Positions 14,398-26,773 of a DNA stretch of 35,462 bases are shown piece after piece. A model generated the notes under the pieces. That model saw only the letters and a program-made list of their open reading frames with translations, made no database searches and was not told the origin of the DNA. How positions within the stretch are numbered: the stretch's first letter is position 1; the number at the start of each line of letters is the position of its first letter. Origin of the DNA: Cytophagales bacterium. Lineage in GTDB: Bacteria; Bacteroidota; Bacteroidia; Cytophagales; Thermoflexibacteraceae. The stretch lies in the NCBI GenBank assembly GCA_947457925.1, contig CANGYA010000017.1:1-35462 (forward strand), in the 5' to 3' direction. The translations under genes and the position numbers were made by a program.

Positions 14398-14430
14398 AAC
14401 ACCGCAAGGGCTTAAAGCCCTTGCGGTGTT
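14398..14430. terminator. Perfect 16-bp palindrome between convergent genes
   Basis: AACACCGCAAGGGCTT pairs perfectly with AAGCCCTTGCGGTGTT around a single central A, between the ends of the GWxTD gene (14377) and murB (14452). It can serve both strands as a terminator, although the T-run is short. Its GGGCTTAAAGCCC centre also resembles the REP-like units elsewhere in the window. Confidence 0.6.
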
Positions 14431-15520: not shown

Positions 15521-15582
15521 CTGTAGAACGGACTTTAGTCCGTTTAAGATATTTTCTAAACGGACTAAAGTCCGTTCTACAG
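15521..15582. repeat. Paired REP-like palindrome upstream of murB
   Basis: Two perfect 26-base arms (15521-15546 and 15557-15582) face each other across a 10-base loop. Each arm is itself built around the palindrome ACGGACTTTAGTCCGT. It lies between murB and the lipoprotein gene, both on the minus strand. Confidence 0.9.
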
Positions 15583-15586
15583 CATA

Positions 15587-16096
15587 TTAATTTTGTTGCA
15601 GAATGGTTTTGTTTGCTAAGATTTTTAAGTAGGGAATATTATTGTGTTTGCGAATGTAAAATAAAGATTCCTGAGCATATATTTTCGGTGTACGTCTTTG
15701 CATTTGCTCCAATAGATTTTTGCAAACTATACTATTAGAAGAAAAAAGATTATATTGTTGAATTGTATTATTTTGAATAAAAACAAATAAAACATAATTA
15801 TCATTATATCTCACTTCATTAAAATCAATAGGGTAGATAGGAAATGATTTTTTGAGGCTATCCTCTGGAAAATAAGAAGTATAAATGTGCAAAGTATCCC
15901 AATCAAAAGTAGTAATGGTAGCTAATTTTAATACCCTACTACTATCTTTTTGCATCTTTTGGAAATGCGTTTTGAGCAGACTATCTAAATTTTTTTGTTG
16001 ATTATCAACTTGTAAATATGTTTGTTCTGTTGCTTGCCGACAAGCTATAAGAGGCAACAACATTACTAATAACGAAAGATTTTTTAGTTGTTTCAT
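15587..16096 (-). CDS. Predicted lipoprotein of unknown function
   Basis: A 169-residue protein with a lipoprotein leader: hydrophobic residues about 8-17 followed by the lipobox LIAC with the lipidated cysteine at C19. The remainder is mixed charged and aromatic sequence with a repeated KxSF/YxxD feel but no domain I recognise. It is probably anchored in the cell envelope. It lies between two palindrome elements and on the same strand as murB and the phosphatase gene, though the elements on both sides make a tight operon unlikely. The AT-rich composition and lack of family matches suggest a lineage-specific gene. Confidence 0.65.
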   Translation of the reverse strand: MKQLKNLSLLVMLLPLIACRQATEQTYLQVDNQQKNLDSLLKTHFQKMQKDSSRVLKLATITTFDWDTLHIYTSYFPEDSLKKSFPIYPIDFNEVRYNDNYVLFVFIQNNTIQQYNLFSSNSIVCKNLLEQMQRRTPKIYAQESLFYIRKHNNIPYLKILANKTILQQN

Positions 16097-16147
16097 CGAC
16101 TTATAGCTTGTTTTTGCTTTATTTAAATGAATAGTTCAAATAATTAA

Positions 16148-16316
16148 CATGAGTTGAGTCTGTACCGTACCCTTTAGGGTGCAAGGTCAATAATATAATT
16201 TTTTTAAATTTAAAAACATATTTACTAACGTAGTAATACAAAATATATATTAAATTAAAAGCAAACTGACCTTGCACCCTAAAGGGTACGGTACATTTTA
16301 TACTACACAACTCACA
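16148..16316. repeat. Paired REP-like element, family GTACCGTACCC, copy 1
   Basis: Two perfect 28-base arms (16162-16189 and 16267-16294), each containing the palindrome ACCCTTTAGGGT, face each other across a 77-base AT-rich spacer. Outer flanks TGAGTTG and CAACTCA, then TTAA-rich ends, are also roughly complementary, so the whole unit is about 170 bases. The same element recurs at 20771-20905. Confidence 0.9.
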
Positions 16317-16320
16317 TTAA

Positions 16321-17547
16321 TTAATTATTTTTTACCCCACAAGACAACAAAGTAATATCATCTATGTATTCATTTTTGCCCTTGTATTGGTACAACACTT
16401 TAATCAATTCTTTGTGTAGTTCCTGTTGGTCTAAATGTTTGTGTGCCTCTATAAACGCAGCTAATTGGTCAGAGCCAAATTCTTCTCCTTGTTCATTGAC
16501 TGTTTCTGTAAAACCATCTGTAAAACAAAACAAAAAGAAAGATTCTATATGATTTATCTCTGTAATTTGTACAAAAGGCAATTCTTTGAAACTTCCTAAA
16601 ATGGTAGTACCTTCTTTAAGTTCTTGTAACAAATAATTTTGAAACAACAAAGGCGGATTATGCCCTGCATTTACATAAGTCATTTGCTTGGTTTTAAAGT
16701 CGTATTCCATGAAAAACGCCGTAGCAAAACTTTCGCCTTGCGTGTTTAACCAAACCAAATGATTGAGTTCATGGATAATTTTTTTCAATGAAAGATGCTG
16801 GCGTACCAAAATACGCAAAGCAGCCTGAAAATTAGACATTAGCAAGGCAGCAGGAATCCCTTTGCCCGATACGTCTGCAATGCACAATAAAAATTTATGG
16901 TCATTGATAAGAATATAGTCGTAATAATCTCCGCCTACAGTCTGGTGTGGAAGGTAGTCCGCCACAATTTTTAGGGTATTTGTGTAAGGTAGTTTTTTAG
17001 GAAACAATAACTGTTGCACATTCTTCGCCAACATCAGTTGAGCCTTAAACTGTTCTTGTTGTTGTTGTTTTCGTGCTAATTTTTTATTTTCAACAGCTAC
17101 AATAATTACATTGGTAAGAGCTTCAATGAAGTTTTCCAAGTTCATTAAAAAATCTTCATCAAAAGTTTCTATTTTGGCAAAACTTACTAAAATATACGCC
17201 AAAATCACAGATTTATGTTTAACAGGTAATACTTTTTGAAACTCTTTGAATACACCAATATCTTCTAATTGTTCAATATTAGTTTCGGTAGTACACTCCA
17301 AAATACCATTGGGCAATGTAATGCGTGCATACTCATTCCCTTTGTTTGTACCAAAAGAAATTTTATAGTTCCACGCCTCATCAAAGACATACAAAGCCAA
17401 TTTGCTAATGTGTTTGTTGGGGCGTAACGTAAATTTATACATCTTGTAAAGGTCGGCTTCATCGGCATTTTCATTGATAGCCTGCGTAACTTCTAACAAA
17501 GATTGTAGCTCAAGTTCTTTTAGTTGTAATTGTACGTCAATAGACAT
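16321..17547 (-). CDS. SpoIIE/RsbU-type PP2C serine/threonine phosphatase
   Basis: A 408-residue protein. The N-terminal 150 residues look like a GAF-like sensor region and are followed by a helical linker (about 152-180, Q-rich). The PP2C/SpoIIE domain (about 190-405) has the metal-binding aspartates in VGGDYYD (D207), IADVSGKG (D225), FTDGFTE (D344) and the NEYIDDITLL end motif (D396/D397). Such phosphatases usually dephosphorylate anti-anti-sigma factors in partner-switching pathways. No STAS or RsbW-type partner is adjacent, so its target is elsewhere. No signal peptide or membrane segment is evident. Confidence 0.92.
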   Translation of the reverse strand: MSIDVQLQLKELELQSLLEVTQAINENADEADLYKMYKFTLRPNKHISKLALYVFDEAWNYKISFGTNKGNEYARITLPNGILECTTETNIEQLEDIGVFKEFQKVLPVKHKSVILAYILVSFAKIETFDEDFLMNLENFIEALTNVIIVAVENKKLARKQQQQEQFKAQLMLAKNVQQLLFPKKLPYTNTLKIVADYLPHQTVGGDYYDYILINDHKFLLCIADVSGKGIPAALLMSNFQAALRILVRQHLSLKKIIHELNHLVWLNTQGESFATAFFMEYDFKTKQMTYVNAGHNPPLLFQNYLLQELKEGTTILGSFKELPFVQITEINHIESFFLFCFTDGFTETVNEQGEEFGSDQLAAFIEAHKHLDQQELHKELIKVLYQYKGKNEYIDDITLLSCGVKNN

Positions 17548-17692
17548 AAGGGTTGGTATTTGCTAAACGGTAGCAAAAATAGTGTTATTTGTCTAAAACA
17601 CCAATAGTAAAGCCTTGATAGAATTTTTTGTAGATACAATTAAAAATTTCGTAAAAAAACTTGTAAAAACAAGGGAGTGTAGTTATTTTTAC

Positions 17693-17710
17693 ATACCAAT
17701 CGTTTAGTAT
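17693..17710. promoter_or_regulatory. TetR operator abutting the TetR start codon
   Basis: ATACCAA-TCGT-TTAGTAT is a 7-4-7 inverted repeat with one mismatch. It ends on the base before the TetR ATG. The same site occurs upstream of the next gene (18325-18342), which supports autoregulation by TetR. Confidence 0.82.
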
Positions 17711-18274
17711 ATGCCGATAATCAAAACCACTAAAGAAGAAATTATTTGGAAATCTCTGCAAGTATTTAGGAAACAGGGTTACTACCGTACCTCTATGGCA
17801 GATTTAGCTACGGCTACAGGACTTACCAAAGGCGTATTTTACCACCATTTTAGTAGCAAAGAGGAATTGATGAAAACGGTTTTACAAGCTATGATACAGT
17901 GGTTTGATGAAAAAGTATTTAGTGTAGCTTATCAAACTACGTTAAGTCCACAAGAAAGAATAGATAAAATGACCGAAAAAGCCTACAAAGCATTTACCAA
18001 TGAGTTAGGGGGGTGTTTGATAGCTAATACCGTTTTGGAAACGGCTCACGTAGAAGAAACTTTTTTGGAAGAACTCAAGCTGTTTTTTCAGTTGTGGGAA
18101 AAAGCCATTGCCAAAGTCTTTGAGGAAAAATATGCACCACAAGTTTTACCCGAAATAGCCCAACAAATCATAGCAGACATAGAAGGTTCTATAGTTTTGA
18201 TGCAACTACACAAAAATCCTGAATATTTACAAAAGGCATTGCACCGAACAAGAAAGTTGTTAGATAGGATATAA
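17711..18274 (+). CDS. TetR/AcrR-family transcriptional regulator
   Basis: A 187-residue repressor-type protein. The N-terminal HTH (about residues 8-55) is typical: FRKQGYYRTSMADLATATG, then GVFYHHFSSKEEL (41-53). The C-terminal helical ligand-binding domain contains a GGCLIANT segment (about 99-106), resembling the TetR_C group of regulators that respond to electrophiles or small lipophilic molecules. Operator-like palindromes precede both this gene and the downstream hydrolase, so it probably represses both until a ligand binds. The ATG directly follows the operator, leaving almost no leader for a promoter inside this gap. Confidence 0.93.
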   Translation: MPIIKTTKEEIIWKSLQVFRKQGYYRTSMADLATATGLTKGVFYHHFSSKEELMKTVLQAMIQWFDEKVFSVAYQTTLSPQERIDKMTEKAYKAFTNELGGCLIANTVLETAHVEETFLEELKLFFQLWEKAIAKVFEEKYAPQVLPEIAQQIIADIEGSIVLMQLHKNPEYLQKALHRTRKLLDRI

Positions 18275-18324
18275 TTAATTGATTTTCAAATTATTGTATT
18301 AGTTATTTTATTTTTTGTTTTAAC

Positions 18325-18342
18325 ATACTAACCGTTTAGTAT
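18325..18342. promoter_or_regulatory. TetR operator upstream of the hydrolase gene
   Basis: ATACTAA-CCGT-TTAGTAT is a perfect 7-4-7 palindrome 22 bases before the hydrolase start. It matches the site at 17693-17710 at 16 of 18 positions. Confidence 0.85.
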
Positions 18343-18364
18343 AAAATTTAACCTTGCTTTTACT

Positions 18365-19234
18365 ATGCTTAACAAAGAAAATTTTGCCGTACAATGTGCA
18401 GACGGCGTTACCTTAAAAGGTGTACTTTTATTGCCACCACAACCCAAAGCCATAATACAGTTTAATGGTGGCACAGCAGCCAAAAAAGAATTTTACTTGC
18501 CGTTTTTAGAGTTTTTGGCTCAAAACGGTTTTGCGGTAGCTTTGTGGGACTACAGAGGTAGTGGCGAATCTGCACCATACAACCTGAAAGAGTGCAATTT
18601 TAGTTTTTTAGATTATGGCACAAAGGATATGCCGACTATTAAAAAATATTTGCAGCAAAAGTTTCCAGACTTGCCTTTGCTCGTTGTAGGACACAGTGTA
18701 GGCGGGCAACAATTAGGTTTTATGGACAGCTTAGAAGGGGTTAAAGGATTTGTAGGATTTGCCGTTTCTACAGGCTATTTTGGCTATATGCCTTTGGCGT
18801 ATAGGCTACAGGCTACGTATTTCTTTTACTTATTTACTCCGCTAAGTATCTCATTAACAGGCTATTTAAAAGCAAAAAAATTTGGTTACATGGAAGATTT
18901 GCCTCGTAGGGTAGTTACGGAGTGGCGTGATTGGTGCGAAAAACCCAGCTACTTTTTCCACTCTGATTTTTATGGCAAAACCGTACCCAAGGGACATTTT
19001 CAGTCTTATCAATTTCCTGTTCATGTTTTTTGGGCAACAGACGACCCCATTTCTAACGAAAATTCAGTAGCTACTTATTGGCAACATATTAAAAGTATAA
19101 AAGACATTACCCTACAAAAAATACAACCCAAAGAATACCAACAGAAAAAAATAGAACATTTTGGTTTTTTCAAAAAAGGTTTGAAAGAAACACTTTGGCA
19201 GGAAACAGTCGCAAAACTCAATAGTTTTTTGTAA
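18365..19234 (+). CDS. Alpha/beta hydrolase under TetR control
   Basis: A 289-residue cytosolic serine hydrolase of the alpha/beta fold, similar to the COG4757-type group. The oxyanion region FNGGTAAKKEFY (33-44), the WDYRGSGES loop (61-69) and the nucleophile elbow GHSVGG (S111) are clear. Later come WATDDPIS (acidic residue D226/D227) and the C-terminal catalytic histidine H265 in KIEHFGFF. No signal peptide. The substrate is unknown. The gene is separated from the TetR gene by a 90-base gap with its own TetR operator. This points to a detoxification or ligand-inducible hydrolysis role, which is inference from context. Confidence 0.9.
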   Translation: MLNKENFAVQCADGVTLKGVLLLPPQPKAIIQFNGGTAAKKEFYLPFLEFLAQNGFAVALWDYRGSGESAPYNLKECNFSFLDYGTKDMPTIKKYLQQKFPDLPLLVVGHSVGGQQLGFMDSLEGVKGFVGFAVSTGYFGYMPLAYRLQATYFFYLFTPLSISLTGYLKAKKFGYMEDLPRRVVTEWRDWCEKPSYFFHSDFYGKTVPKGHFQSYQFPVHVFWATDDPISNENSVATYWQHIKSIKDITLQKIQPKEYQQKKIEHFGFFKKGLKETLWQETVAKLNSFL

Positions 19235-19242
19235 AGCAATAT

Positions 19243-19279
19243 GTAGGACTTTCTATTTCTTTTTATTAGAAAGTCCTAC
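19243..19279 (+). terminator. Hairpin after the hydrolase gene
   Basis: GTAGGACTTTCTA (19243-19255) pairs perfectly with TAGAAAGTCCTAC (19267-19279) around an 11-base T-rich loop, 9 bases after the stop. No T-run follows, so it may act as an mRNA-stabilising hairpin or a weak terminator. Confidence 0.6.
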
Positions 19280-19378
19280 GCATTTCCTTTGTAATTCTAC
19301 CACAAAATTTTTAGCTTGTAGAAAATAAACAACAAACTTTTTATCACTTCTTTATTTTATACTCTACAAGACACAACC

Positions 19379-20047
19379 ATGCAATTTTTCTTAATTATCT
19401 GCCTTAGTTTTTTGATTTCACCCATTTTTGCCCAAACTATTAATGGTAAATGGCAAGTAATAGGTACAAATCCTTTGAAACAGACCTATAAAGGCACTAT
19501 CAACATTACGAACCAATCTCATGCACAAGTCTATTTATTGGACTGGGATATTACGAATGTAGGCAAATATGGCGGTGTGGGAATCTACCGCAACAATATT
19601 TTATATGCAAGTTGGGTGCTGCAACAAGGCGACTGTGGCATTGTAGTTTATACGATTAACCGCAGCAATGGCAATTTGGACGGTACTTGGACAATGAAAA
19701 ACAGCCCTAATGCCGTAGGCACAGAAACAGCTACACAAAAAACAGGGGACAAAAACAACGTCATAGGCACGTACCAAGTACAAGGAGCTACGGCTACAGG
19801 TGGCGGTTACAGAGGCACATTGAGCATAGAGGCGGGCAGTGGTGTAGGTAACTATCTGGTTAAGTGGAACTTAGTAAATAATCCTGTATATGTAGGTGTG
19901 GGTTTTATAGAAGGTAATAAATTGATTGTGGCTTGGGGTGGTGGTAGTTTTGGGGTGGTGCAATATGTTTTTTCTGGCAATAAGGCTACAGGCAAATGGG
20001 CTATTAAAGCACACAACGGTACTTTAACAGAAAATCTACAACGGTAA
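19379..20047 (+). CDS. Secreted protein with two internal beta repeats, unknown function
   Basis: A 222-residue protein with a signal peptide (MQFFLIICLSFLISPIFAQ, cleavage about 18-19). The mature part consists of two similar halves, about 20-110 and 125-222. Both run G-x-W/Y-Q-V, then YKGTI or YRGTL, then a YLLDW or YLVKW strand, then YGGVGIY or YVGVGFI, then L-x-ASW or L-I-VAW, a G-IVVY or G-VVQY segment and a final G-W. Glycine- and aromatic-rich alternation suggests a beta-barrel or beta-sandwich formed by duplication. I do not recognise the family. It is a single gene with its own hairpin terminator and no obvious partner. Confidence 0.72.
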   Translation: MQFFLIICLSFLISPIFAQTINGKWQVIGTNPLKQTYKGTINITNQSHAQVYLLDWDITNVGKYGGVGIYRNNILYASWVLQQGDCGIVVYTINRSNGNLDGTWTMKNSPNAVGTETATQKTGDKNNVIGTYQVQGATATGGGYRGTLSIEAGSGVGNYLVKWNLVNNPVYVGVGFIEGNKLIVAWGGGSFGVVQYVFSGNKATGKWAIKAHNGTLTENLQR

Positions 20048-20070
20048 AACTGTTTGAGGCTAAAATAAAA

Positions 20071-20101
20071 GAAACTACTATCACAGATAGTAGTTTCTTC
20101 A
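20071..20101 (+). terminator. Terminator of the two-repeat secreted protein
   Basis: GAAACTACTATC pairs perfectly with GATAGTAGTTTC around a 3-base loop, 23 bases after the stop, and is followed by a T-containing tail. The remaining gap to 20279 shows no supported gene. Confidence 0.7.
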
Positions 20102-20279
20102 TTAGCTAATTAAACCAAATAAAAATCATCACGCCTAATAAAAGGCGTAATAAACCTCCCTTTTACTTTGAAACAAAAGTATAAAATAAAATTAAGAACC
20201 CAACATAAATTTCGGTAAATGGTCATTTTTATTCGGTCAATTTGCAAAAAAAGCCGATAAATTGGAGAAAAGCCGATTT

Positions 20280-20726
20280 TTACACTCTTTGGTAGTCGCC
20301 TTGCCAATATTGTATGCGGCGTTTGATAGTATCTGGCGACAGCCTTTCTGCAATAGCCGTTTCTAATAGTTTTACCAATTCATCATCAGAAGCAAAACGC
20401 AGGGCTATGATTTGCCCCATACTCAATGATTTTTCTAATTCTTCAAAGTTTTTTTGTGTCAATCTGTAATAACGATACCGCATCTCAAGGCGTATGATAC
20501 GGTTTTGCAGCACAAAACCATATTGTACACGCAACAGAATACTGATAATCATAATAGACAACCCAACTAAAGTGAGGGCAATCCATATTTTTTGTAACTG
20601 CCCGTCTTTTACACTTACCGCCTCATACGCAAACCAAACCGTAGAGAAAAACGCCAAAGGCATCTGAACAAAATGGTGCAGTGGGGTAAATTTTTTGTGA
20701 TTTTCGTAGTTTTGTAGTGCTTGCAT
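20280..20726 (-). CDS. DUF6526-type membrane protein
   Basis: A 148-residue protein with two hydrophobic segments (about residues 22-37 and 47-66), preceded by a short YENHKKFTPLHHFV stretch that recurs in this family. The cytosolic C-terminal part has RIIRLEMRYRYYRLT, QIIALRFASDDELVKLL and a final YWQGDYQRV, characteristic of DUF6526 as I remember it. The function is unknown. It stands alone between REP-like elements. Confidence 0.78.
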   Translation of the reverse strand: MQALQNYENHKKFTPLHHFVQMPLAFFSTVWFAYEAVSVKDGQLQKIWIALTLVGLSIMIISILLRVQYGFVLQNRIIRLEMRYRYYRLTQKNFEELEKSLSMGQIIALRFASDDELVKLLETAIAERLSPDTIKRRIQYWQGDYQRV

Positions 20727-20770
20727 AGAACAAGTAATTAATTGATAAACAATGATTTAGTTTGATAAAC

Positions 20771-20905
20771 GAGAGTTGTATAGTGTACCGTACCCTTTAG
20801 GGTACAAGGTCAAGATATTTTTTTTTAATTAAAAAATAGAATTTAAAGTAACTAAAATTAACCTTGCACCCTAAAGGGTACGGTACATTTTATATTATAC
20901 AACTT
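20771..20905. repeat. Paired REP-like element, family GTACCGTACCC, copy 2
   Basis: Arms at 20785-20812 and 20861-20886 are complementary with one mismatch and nearly identical to those of copy 1 at 16148-16316. Outer flanks GTTGTATA and TATACAAC are also complementary. The AT-rich spacer differs from copy 1, so the arms are conserved and the middle is not. Confidence 0.9.
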
Positions 20906-20920
20906 ACATTAGTAACACAC

Positions 20921-20990
20921 AGTATATTCGCCTTTAGACGAATAGGACACTTTTTAGCAATAAAATTATTCGTCTAAAGGCGAATATACT
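20921..20990. repeat. Paired REP-like element, family GTATATTCGCC
   Basis: Two perfect 24-base arms (20921-20944 and 20967-20990) around a 22-base spacer. Each arm contains CGCCTTTAGACG. It is placed back to back with the preceding element, upstream of the 3' end of the Ddl-like gene. Confidence 0.9.
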
Positions 20991-26629: not shown

Positions 26630-26773
26630 TACTGAAATAGTAAATCACTAATTTTTTAGGGGTTTGGGTTGAGGCTTGTAAGCCCCCAAGCATTAAATTA
26701 ATTAAATTAAACCACAGACTTCAGTCGGTGGCACAATACTATTCAGTAACTAAAACTCAAATTATATACTACA

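Follow-up and report, generated by a model that had tools for sequence, protein, structure and literature searches.

Several described systems of repetitive extragenic palindromes (REPs) and REP-associated tyrosine transposases (RAYTs, also TnpAREP) resemble the four pairs of palindromes found in the stretch of DNA analyzed here, a contig of 35,462 nucleotides from a Cytophagales bacterium. The draft genome to which this stretch, referred to as the window, belongs as contig C17 has 4.86 Mb in 329 contigs (96.9% complete). Judging from their sequence, the window pairs look like REPINs, that is, dispersed units of two inverted REPs with their tags outward, of one RAYT lineage. A REP loop like theirs is known from Marinomonas, a Gammaproteobacterium unlike the host here. 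For the Marinomonas sp. MWYL1 REPtron Mb (group 3 TnpAREP/REP; Corneloup et al. 2021, PMC8266576), the REP loop is TTTA, as here, and in vitro selection (SELEX, systematic evolution of ligands by exponential enrichment) identified three of the four loop bases, T12, T13 and A15, as essential, any base being accepted at position 14. Swapping the Mb stem affects cleavage only moderately, and tag bases choose the cleavage dinucleotide (PMC8266576). The Mb stem of 5 bp lies 2 nt from GTAG and a stem mismatch harms Mb (PMC8266576), whereas the stems here begin about 1 nt after GTA and families B, D and F described below carry a fixed T.G mismatch.

It is unsettled on what basis RAYTs select their REPs and why many REP families can share one genome. 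Such families coexist in Pseudomonas fluorescens SBW25, in which group GI reportedly also shares the REP centre. The SBW25 families have different stems and a common centre, GCTTGC in groups GII and GIII, and form inverted pairs for which RAYTs were proposed as movers, as here, although the core differs (Bertels and Rainey 2011, PMC3116915). RAYT subclass 2.7 of Quentin et al. (2018, PMC6006769) has the NHVH, WQ and Y..QNP motifs also present here, a placement made by motif only, with subclass 2.4 considered as well; its proteins of about 213 aa are reported from Cyanobacteria and a few other phyla with GT[AG]G-tagged REPs, whereas the fourth tag base varies here. In the GTAG REP superfamily (Di Nocera et al. 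2013, PMC3733652), the tag accompanies a stem of 6–13 bp, head-to-head dimers predominate, as here, and loops fitting TY are common; degeneracy affects tag positions 2 and 3, whereas here position 4 is free (GTAG, GTAC, GTAA or GTAT). Among solved structures, that of the Escherichia coli REP/TnpAREP system (4er8) is closest by sequence and fold; the E. coli REPs are bulged. The system reported here is of this known RAYT/REPIN kind, with an unusually clean split between a constrained tag and loop and a free stem. Within the open-access literature, as far as its text was available, neither CTTTAG-core REPs of Cytophagales nor GGACTTTAGTCC as a REP turned up, and nothing was found on REP loops that follow a RAYT phylogeny.

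Each of the eight arms in the four window pairs consists of GTA-N, a 6-nt stem, the core CTTTAG and the partner stem, with the tags outward (Table 1). A first-pass annotation of this DNA had described a CTTTAG or CTAAAG centre in every arm of four pairs with unlike outer sequences, which is correct for 8/8 arms; it had missed the GTA located exactly 10 nt ahead of every core. The pattern GTANNNNNNNCTTTAG has exactly eight matches in the window, compared with 0.37 on average and at most 3 in shuffled sequence, and the pairs were recovered independently as inverted repeats I1–I4. Three stem families are represented: AACGGA, CGTACC (two units) and ATTCGC. The palindrome at 14398-14430, which the annotation had placed in the same set, was rejected as a member: it sits between convergent genes, scores as terminator-like, has an odd CTTAAAG centre and carries no GTA tag. 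Its 17-nt centre recurs at three other loci (L071:2878, L158:9699 and L310:3515) within a long, terminator-like palindrome that reads roughly CCCCRCAAGGGCTTAAAGCCCTTGYGGGG.

Tag, stem and core had been detected jointly, and as an ascertainment control the requirement for each was lifted separately. When the core and five of six stem pairs were required and the tag was left free, GTA occupied position -10 in 132/148 sites. When the GTA tag and five pairs were required in fixed register and the centre was left free, CTTTAG was recovered in 74/118; four control tags yielded 16–23 hairpins each, no centre exceeding 2. Across the genome, GTANNNNNNNCTTTAG has 851 matches (424+427 by strand) versus 35 (18+17) for the reversed pattern, and GGACTTTAGTCC has 193 copies versus 0. 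Among 39 genomes, further excesses appear in the same-genus genome G001 (282+291, or 573, versus 19+27 reversed) and in G002 (196+185 versus 35+32). The largest excess among the remaining 36 is that of G032 (65+67 versus 27+21), with weaker excesses in G036, G003 and G013 and many genomes below the control. A census of hairpins with arms of at least 7 nt over 835 kb identified CTTTAG as by far the commonest centre (54), followed by CATTTG (28) and a next centre of 5, while a Markov control of about half of that sequence contained no centre above 2. The annotation had proposed that a genome in which most palindromes lack the core would reduce the sharing to chance; 252/306 hairpins do lack CTTTAG, but the sharing is still beyond chance given the rank of this centre and the tag register. 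Chance was rejected as the source of the common core, on the window count and the GTA register alike.

The stem families were defined in a sample of 1.235 Mb, comprising the window and 60 stretches of 20 kb. Its 166 sites with tag and core were assigned to eight named families: A (AACGGA, 54), B (CATAGA, 39), C (CACAGA, 25), D (CATAGG, 14), E (ATTCGC, 15), F (CGTACC, 9), G (TACGGA, 4) and H (TGTGGA, 3), with three sites left over, one of them a coding chance hit. With B, C and D separated by only one or two bases, and G resembling A, about five stems are clearly distinct. The tag is GTA in 164/166 sites, in a scan that also admitted GCA and GTG, and its fourth base is G in 97/164; next to RAYTs of the lineage, the tags GTAC, GTAA and GTAT are seen as well. 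Placement is intergenic, 164/166 sites lying outside open reading frames of at least 120 aa, which cover 84% of the sequence. Neighbouring sites within 250 bp are convergent, with tags outward, in 57/65 pairs (five others are tail to tail and three tandem), and 53 of the 57 convergent pairs are homodimers. Eleven aligned short family-A copies share a conserved block ending CTGTAG...CTACAG between unrelated flanks, one end of one copy varying in its first base. The REPIN arrangement of a dispersed unit with two inverted, outward-tagged REPs is thus present in those 57 pairs and at the 11 family-A loci.

Two RAYT genes of the lineage were identified in the genome, at C31:273-680 and C113:8930-9319 (profile NF047646 at E <= 10), 75.6% identical over 221 residues; the C31 match begins 273 bases from the contig end. 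Family A REPs (GTAG-AACGGA-CTTTAG, the GGACTTTAGTCC family) lie on both sides of both genes, each of which is therefore bracketed by REPs abundant in its own genome. Judged by sequence, predicted fold and HUH-Y residues, both genes are RAYTs. H118, H120, W173, Y194, N198 and P199 are invariant in 22 aligned rows, and the Y1_Tnp profile scores above its cut-off in 5/5. NF047646 (REP_Tyr_transpos) gives the two genes 69.6 and 67 bits, under its cut-off of 80, and relatives 70.3, 79.4 and 89.7. Among solved structures, the only significant relative by sequence is 4er8 (E 1.1e-05), which is also the top fold match of the RAYT model (predicted local distance difference test, pLDDT, 89.7; E 6.8e-08; template modelling score 0.50 by query), with IS608 next. 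No further RAYT of the lineage was found in the genome even at E <= 1, three other weak matches being the IS200-like genes described next.

Two other sources of the transposase function were considered and set aside. An IS200/IS605 insertion sequence does not fit two diverged genes that are far outnumbered by REPs. The three IS200-like Y1 genes, the only ones listed by PF01797 at E <= 0.001 (the RAYTs of the genome were not), were rejected as cognate enzymes. L001 and L003 are flanked by CGTAGG- or CTAACGG-type palindromes. The third, L002:1318-1460 (G000 C80), has upstream hairpins with a CCCACGA stem whose loops vary by copy (TTGAAA, TTAGAA, CTTTAG), a pattern of kept stem and changing loop opposite to that of the REPs here.

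Natural variation among the REP copies separates a constrained loop from a free stem. In a free-loop scan requiring the tag and a known stem with at most one mismatch, 171 sites carried CTTTAG (146), CTTCAG (7), the reversed CTAAAG (4) or other centres (14), and single departures fell at the closing C (6), T12 (1), T13 (0), T14 (8), A15 (0) and the closing G (5). The third loop base is accordingly free and the other loop bases nearly fixed, the same pattern as in the Marinomonas SELEX (PMC8266576). The same scan in G001 returned CTTTAG in 13/17 and CTTCAG in 4/17 sites. Pairing is maintained as stems change: across 37 distinct modules, 199/222 cells are Watson–Crick pairs, compared with 90 when arms were shuffled (maximum 114). 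Mismatches in stem pairs 1–5, read on the tag strand, are G.T or T.G in 10 cases (3 of them from the small family H, the scan admitting G.T, leaving 7 without it), T.T in one and A.C or C.A in none. In DNA folding, the tag strand is more stable than the other in families B (-4.6 versus -3.5 kcal/mol), D (-4.0 versus -2.7) and F (-2.6 versus -2.0), those with the fixed mismatch, and no strand difference is seen in family A (-6.3 versus -6.2), a perfect palindrome. That the better-folding strand is the one bearing the tag and the T-rich loop is suggestive only, the modules sharing ancestry. The dinucleotide preceding the tag fits a guide rule for GTAG (CT in 80/97) and GTAA (TT in 14/16), and within families B and D combined, C stands at -2 in 25/35 copies with GTAG and 0/16 with GTAA. 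These copies are not independent, and a Fisher test on them makes the evidence look stronger than it is.

To relate loops to enzymes, profile searches at E <= 1e-12 were conducted over 390 genomes of the order and 395 of the phylum, two overlapping samples with relatives in 73 and 86 genomes, respectively. A scan of genome contigs found 42 RAYT loci, of which 21 (L200-L220) were read for hairpins outside the tree, and L182-L184 duplicate loci of G002 and G001 that were included before. The tree comprised 92 of 99 loci, omitting L223 and L263 (duplicates) and L194-L198 (partial or distant). Scanning up to 400 bp, with GTGG and GTGC tags also admitted, revealed at least one candidate tagged hairpin beside 93/99 loci, and the loops differ by RAYT clade (CT-TT-AG, CT-TC-AG, CT-TTGT-AG, CT-TTT-AG, TCC, GCC and others). 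A locus was labelled positive when at least one third of its adjacent hairpins contained CT-T(T/C)-AG, a rule under which L105 (7/15) and L226 (1/3) are positive; L251 (CTTCA within GC pairs) and L199 (CTTCAG, tag too far) were not counted.

The 92 rows then comprised 23 positive, 64 with another loop and 5 without hairpins. The label changes 8 times on the tree, compared with a shuffled mean of 20.4, and 0/500 shuffles were as low; 19 of the 23 positive rows fall in one 30-row clade (SH-aLRT, Shimodaira–Hasegawa-like approximate likelihood ratio test, 85, quick tree) that also holds 9 other-loop and 2 unlabelled rows, the remaining 4 positives lying elsewhere. In this phylogenetic check, of the kind proposed with the first-pass annotation, the core tracks the RAYT lineage, although the label does not trace back to one clean origin. 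Its idea of one recognition principle for several families, possibly belonging to one transposase lineage, agrees with this clustering, and the loop is probably what the enzyme reads. The tag register is shared as well, at -10 in 16 of the 19 clade RAYTs and at -11 in two (L180 from Larkinella rosea and L226); L103, with GTAG-CACGCC-CTTTAG found by a separate hairpin scan, also has its tag at -10. Stems of the window genome recur beside RAYTs elsewhere: CATAGG at L106, CGTACC at L225 and L229, CGTACC with a TTTTAA centre at L230 and L231, and TGTGG at L105 with centres CTTCAG and TTTTAA. The natural variation next to 23 RAYTs, and across hundreds of REPs from another phylum, agrees with the Marinomonas SELEX. 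A loop code thereby becomes testable between RAYT clades (TTTA, TTGT, TCC, GCC and others), and sorting REPs only by their stems would fail to recognize a single system.

We consider it likely that the pairs are REPINs in the full sense, non-autonomous elements of RAYT single-strand transposases that read the GTA foot and the loop. In exposed single-stranded DNA, the strand reading GTA...CTTTAG would fold into a hairpin, and a RAYT dimer would bind both hairpins, contacting each at its GTA foot and its C-TT(T/C)A-G loop, the stem serving only as a rod. The enzyme would cut beside the tag, guided by the fourth tag base at least where the tag is GTAG or GTAA, and would move the REPIN as a unit. 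Under such a scheme, the tag and loop would be constrained and the stem free to change through compensatory steps, hence many stem families with one core.

Several observations weigh against this scheme. The core label changes 8 times on the tree, and TTTTAA hairpins stand beside the clade RAYTs L105, L226, L230 and L231; loops therefore do switch within the lineage. No RAYT residue column among the 22 best clearly explains the loop class, the nearest (frequencies in the main clade, the others and the four outlying positives) being I17 (0.63/0.19/0.75) and H180 (0.95/0.71/1.00). The guide rule fails for GTAC (GT in 3 and GA in 1 of 43) and GTAT (AT in 0 and AA in 3 of 8). Loop reading is not universal in RAYTs, as the E. 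coli loop sequence shows no selection (PMC8266576). One attempt to find an empty site in G001 returned none, the matching genes lying on different contigs with synteny broken. At E <= 1, families B–H have no RAYT of their own in the assembly, only family A having a cognate one. Finally, outer inverted repeats are present on long family-A copies as well as on some copies of B, D and F, and another transposase may have moved those.

The missing RAYTs bear on an explanation by shared ancestry, in which each stem family once had its own stem-reading RAYT of this lineage, since lost or unassembled, so that the core is inherited and the REPINs are relics. We rate this only slightly below an even chance. 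RAYTs with D- and F-like flanking stems, and with TGTGG at L105, exist in other genomes, the convergent pairs are almost all homodimers, and the draft is fragmented, with one RAYT match close to a contig end. E. coli genomes with or without a RAYT keep at least 69 REPINs (PMC8049555). The uniformity of the families is divided: C and E have fewer exact modules (12/25 and 4/15) than A (44/53), whereas B (32/39 over two tags) and F (8/9) roughly equal A in this respect. A tag and loop that remain constant through changes of stem are not predicted by ancestry alone, and G001, 99% complete in 70 contigs, holds its 573 sites with one intact RAYT of the clade and a fragment; its REPs include several families among the matches listed, alongside RAYTs of other clades. 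The opposite extreme, loop-directed and stem-blind recognition by which one RAYT serves many REPIN families in trans, appears doubtful to us. If it held, the families of one genome would form a single mobilome, recognized by a tag of three bases together with a loop of four, stems would diversify freely, and new families could be founded without a new enzyme. Its direct products would be hetero-REPINs such as those of G002: in 9 of 20 regions chosen for listed REP sites, mostly AACGCC, two tagged arms of unlike stem (AACGCC or a variant of it by one base in one arm, CGTACC or CATACC in the other) lie within a common outer repeat, and both arms carry CT-T(T/C)-AG in 7/9, the other two having a changed closing base.

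In another explanation, the F copies, the long A copies and some of those of B and D owe their spread to a transposase that acts on outer inverted repeats (TTAACGTAAGTTGCGTAGTA and similar), the REPs being cargo of miniature inverted-repeat transposable elements (MITEs). TTAACGTAAGTTGCGTAGTA has 66 matches compared with 10–26 in five shuffled versions, or 9–44 when overlaps are counted, a weaker control; 10 of 16 paired TTAACGTAAGTTGCGTAGTA ends enclose A, D or F REPs, and the outer flanks of 12/57 convergent pairs exceed the 95% level of random pairing. The G002 units, dispersed and with a different stem per arm, also lie inside a common outer repeat, another one. Yet 11/12 short family-A pairs have no outer match above that level and short copies end sharply at CTGTAG, none of the four F pairs exceeds it, 6 of the 16 paired repeats hold no REP in the REP scan, and in the two window F units only the right end is a clear match to TTAACGTAAGTTGCGTAGTA. 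For element 1 (16144..16320), the right flank to 16320 differs from TTAACGTAAGTTGCGTAGTA at 3/20 positions in an ungapped scan and the left at 11/20, a 13-nt partial match, TTAACATGAGTTG, being visible by eye; for element 2 (20766..20912), the right end has 5/20 and the left 10/20 mismatches, again with a left partial match by eye. We regard this cargo explanation as rather improbable. Far less probable still is the absence of any enzyme, with CTTTAG hairpins arising repeatedly as terminators or stable DNA mini-hairpins: two of the eight window arms do score as terminator-like and the hairpins fold as DNA, but neither role predicts the GTA at a fixed 10 nt, convergent pairing, bracketing of RAYT genes or tracking of the RAYT lineage.

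The MITE-like family is itself a separate observation. It has ends of about 20 bp matching TTAACGTAAGTTGCGTAGTA and carries A, D or F REPs just inside them, or sometimes none; its loci are listed in Table 1 with the window features.

Table 1 REP units of the window, with their matches to GTANNNNNNNCTTTAG, and loci of the MITE-like family.
Feature	Position	Component REPs (strand)	Matches to GTANNNNNNNCTTTAG	Remarks
Family A REPIN	15521..15582	two convergent REPs GTAGAACGGACTTTAGTCCGTT, 15523-15544 (+) and 15559-15580 (-)	15523+/15580-	bounded by CT...AG
Family F element 1	16144..16320	REPs GTACCGTACCCTTTAGGGTGCA, 16162-16183 (+) and 16273-16294 (-)	16162+/16294-	
Family F element 2	20766..20912	REPs GTACCGTACCCTTTAGGGTACA, 20785-20806 (+), and GTACCGTACCCTTTAGGGTGCA, 20865-20886 (-)	20785+/20886-	inverted repeats I1, I13
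Family E REPIN	20922..20989	REPs GTATATTCGCCTTTAGACGAAT, 20922-20943 (+) and 20968-20989 (-)	20922+/20989-	inverted repeat I4
Decayed family C-like REP	26711..26734	ACCACAGACTTCAGTCGGTGGCAC (+)		GTA tag lost; known stem with free loop
MITE-like family	L041, L049, L050, L051, L054, L059, L067, L140, L141, L151; window right flanks to 16320 and 20912			

Additional hairpin types were encountered during the scans. The 28 CATTTG-centred hairpins in the 835 kb are nearly all ccCTCTCCATTTGGAGAGgg, often after acctcaccccc and without a GTA tag, as at L067:7812 and L063:12428 (examples from the L034-L073 sample). In G001, an array of repeats of about 80 bp built of TGTGG-family hairpins (L105:285-1235) lies directly upstream of the one intact RAYT of the clade, while RAYTs of other clades (L114, L108, L122) are accompanied by long perfect palindromes with odd centres, for example AAACCTTATAAGGTCTT-A-AAGACC..., and the region of the IS200-like gene L127 contains dense arrays of CCCTACGT and CAACCTC hairpins. 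RAYT-like domains were also detected in frame within defence genes by Pfam and PADLOC, namely inside an HmaB-type DUF1156 methylase next to HmaA (L334:935-4717, G432) and inside a type I restriction R subunit (L335:1953-5798, G374). Other RAYT matches in open frames of more than 1000 aa occur in G342, G198, G533, G628, G651, G677, G697 and G735.

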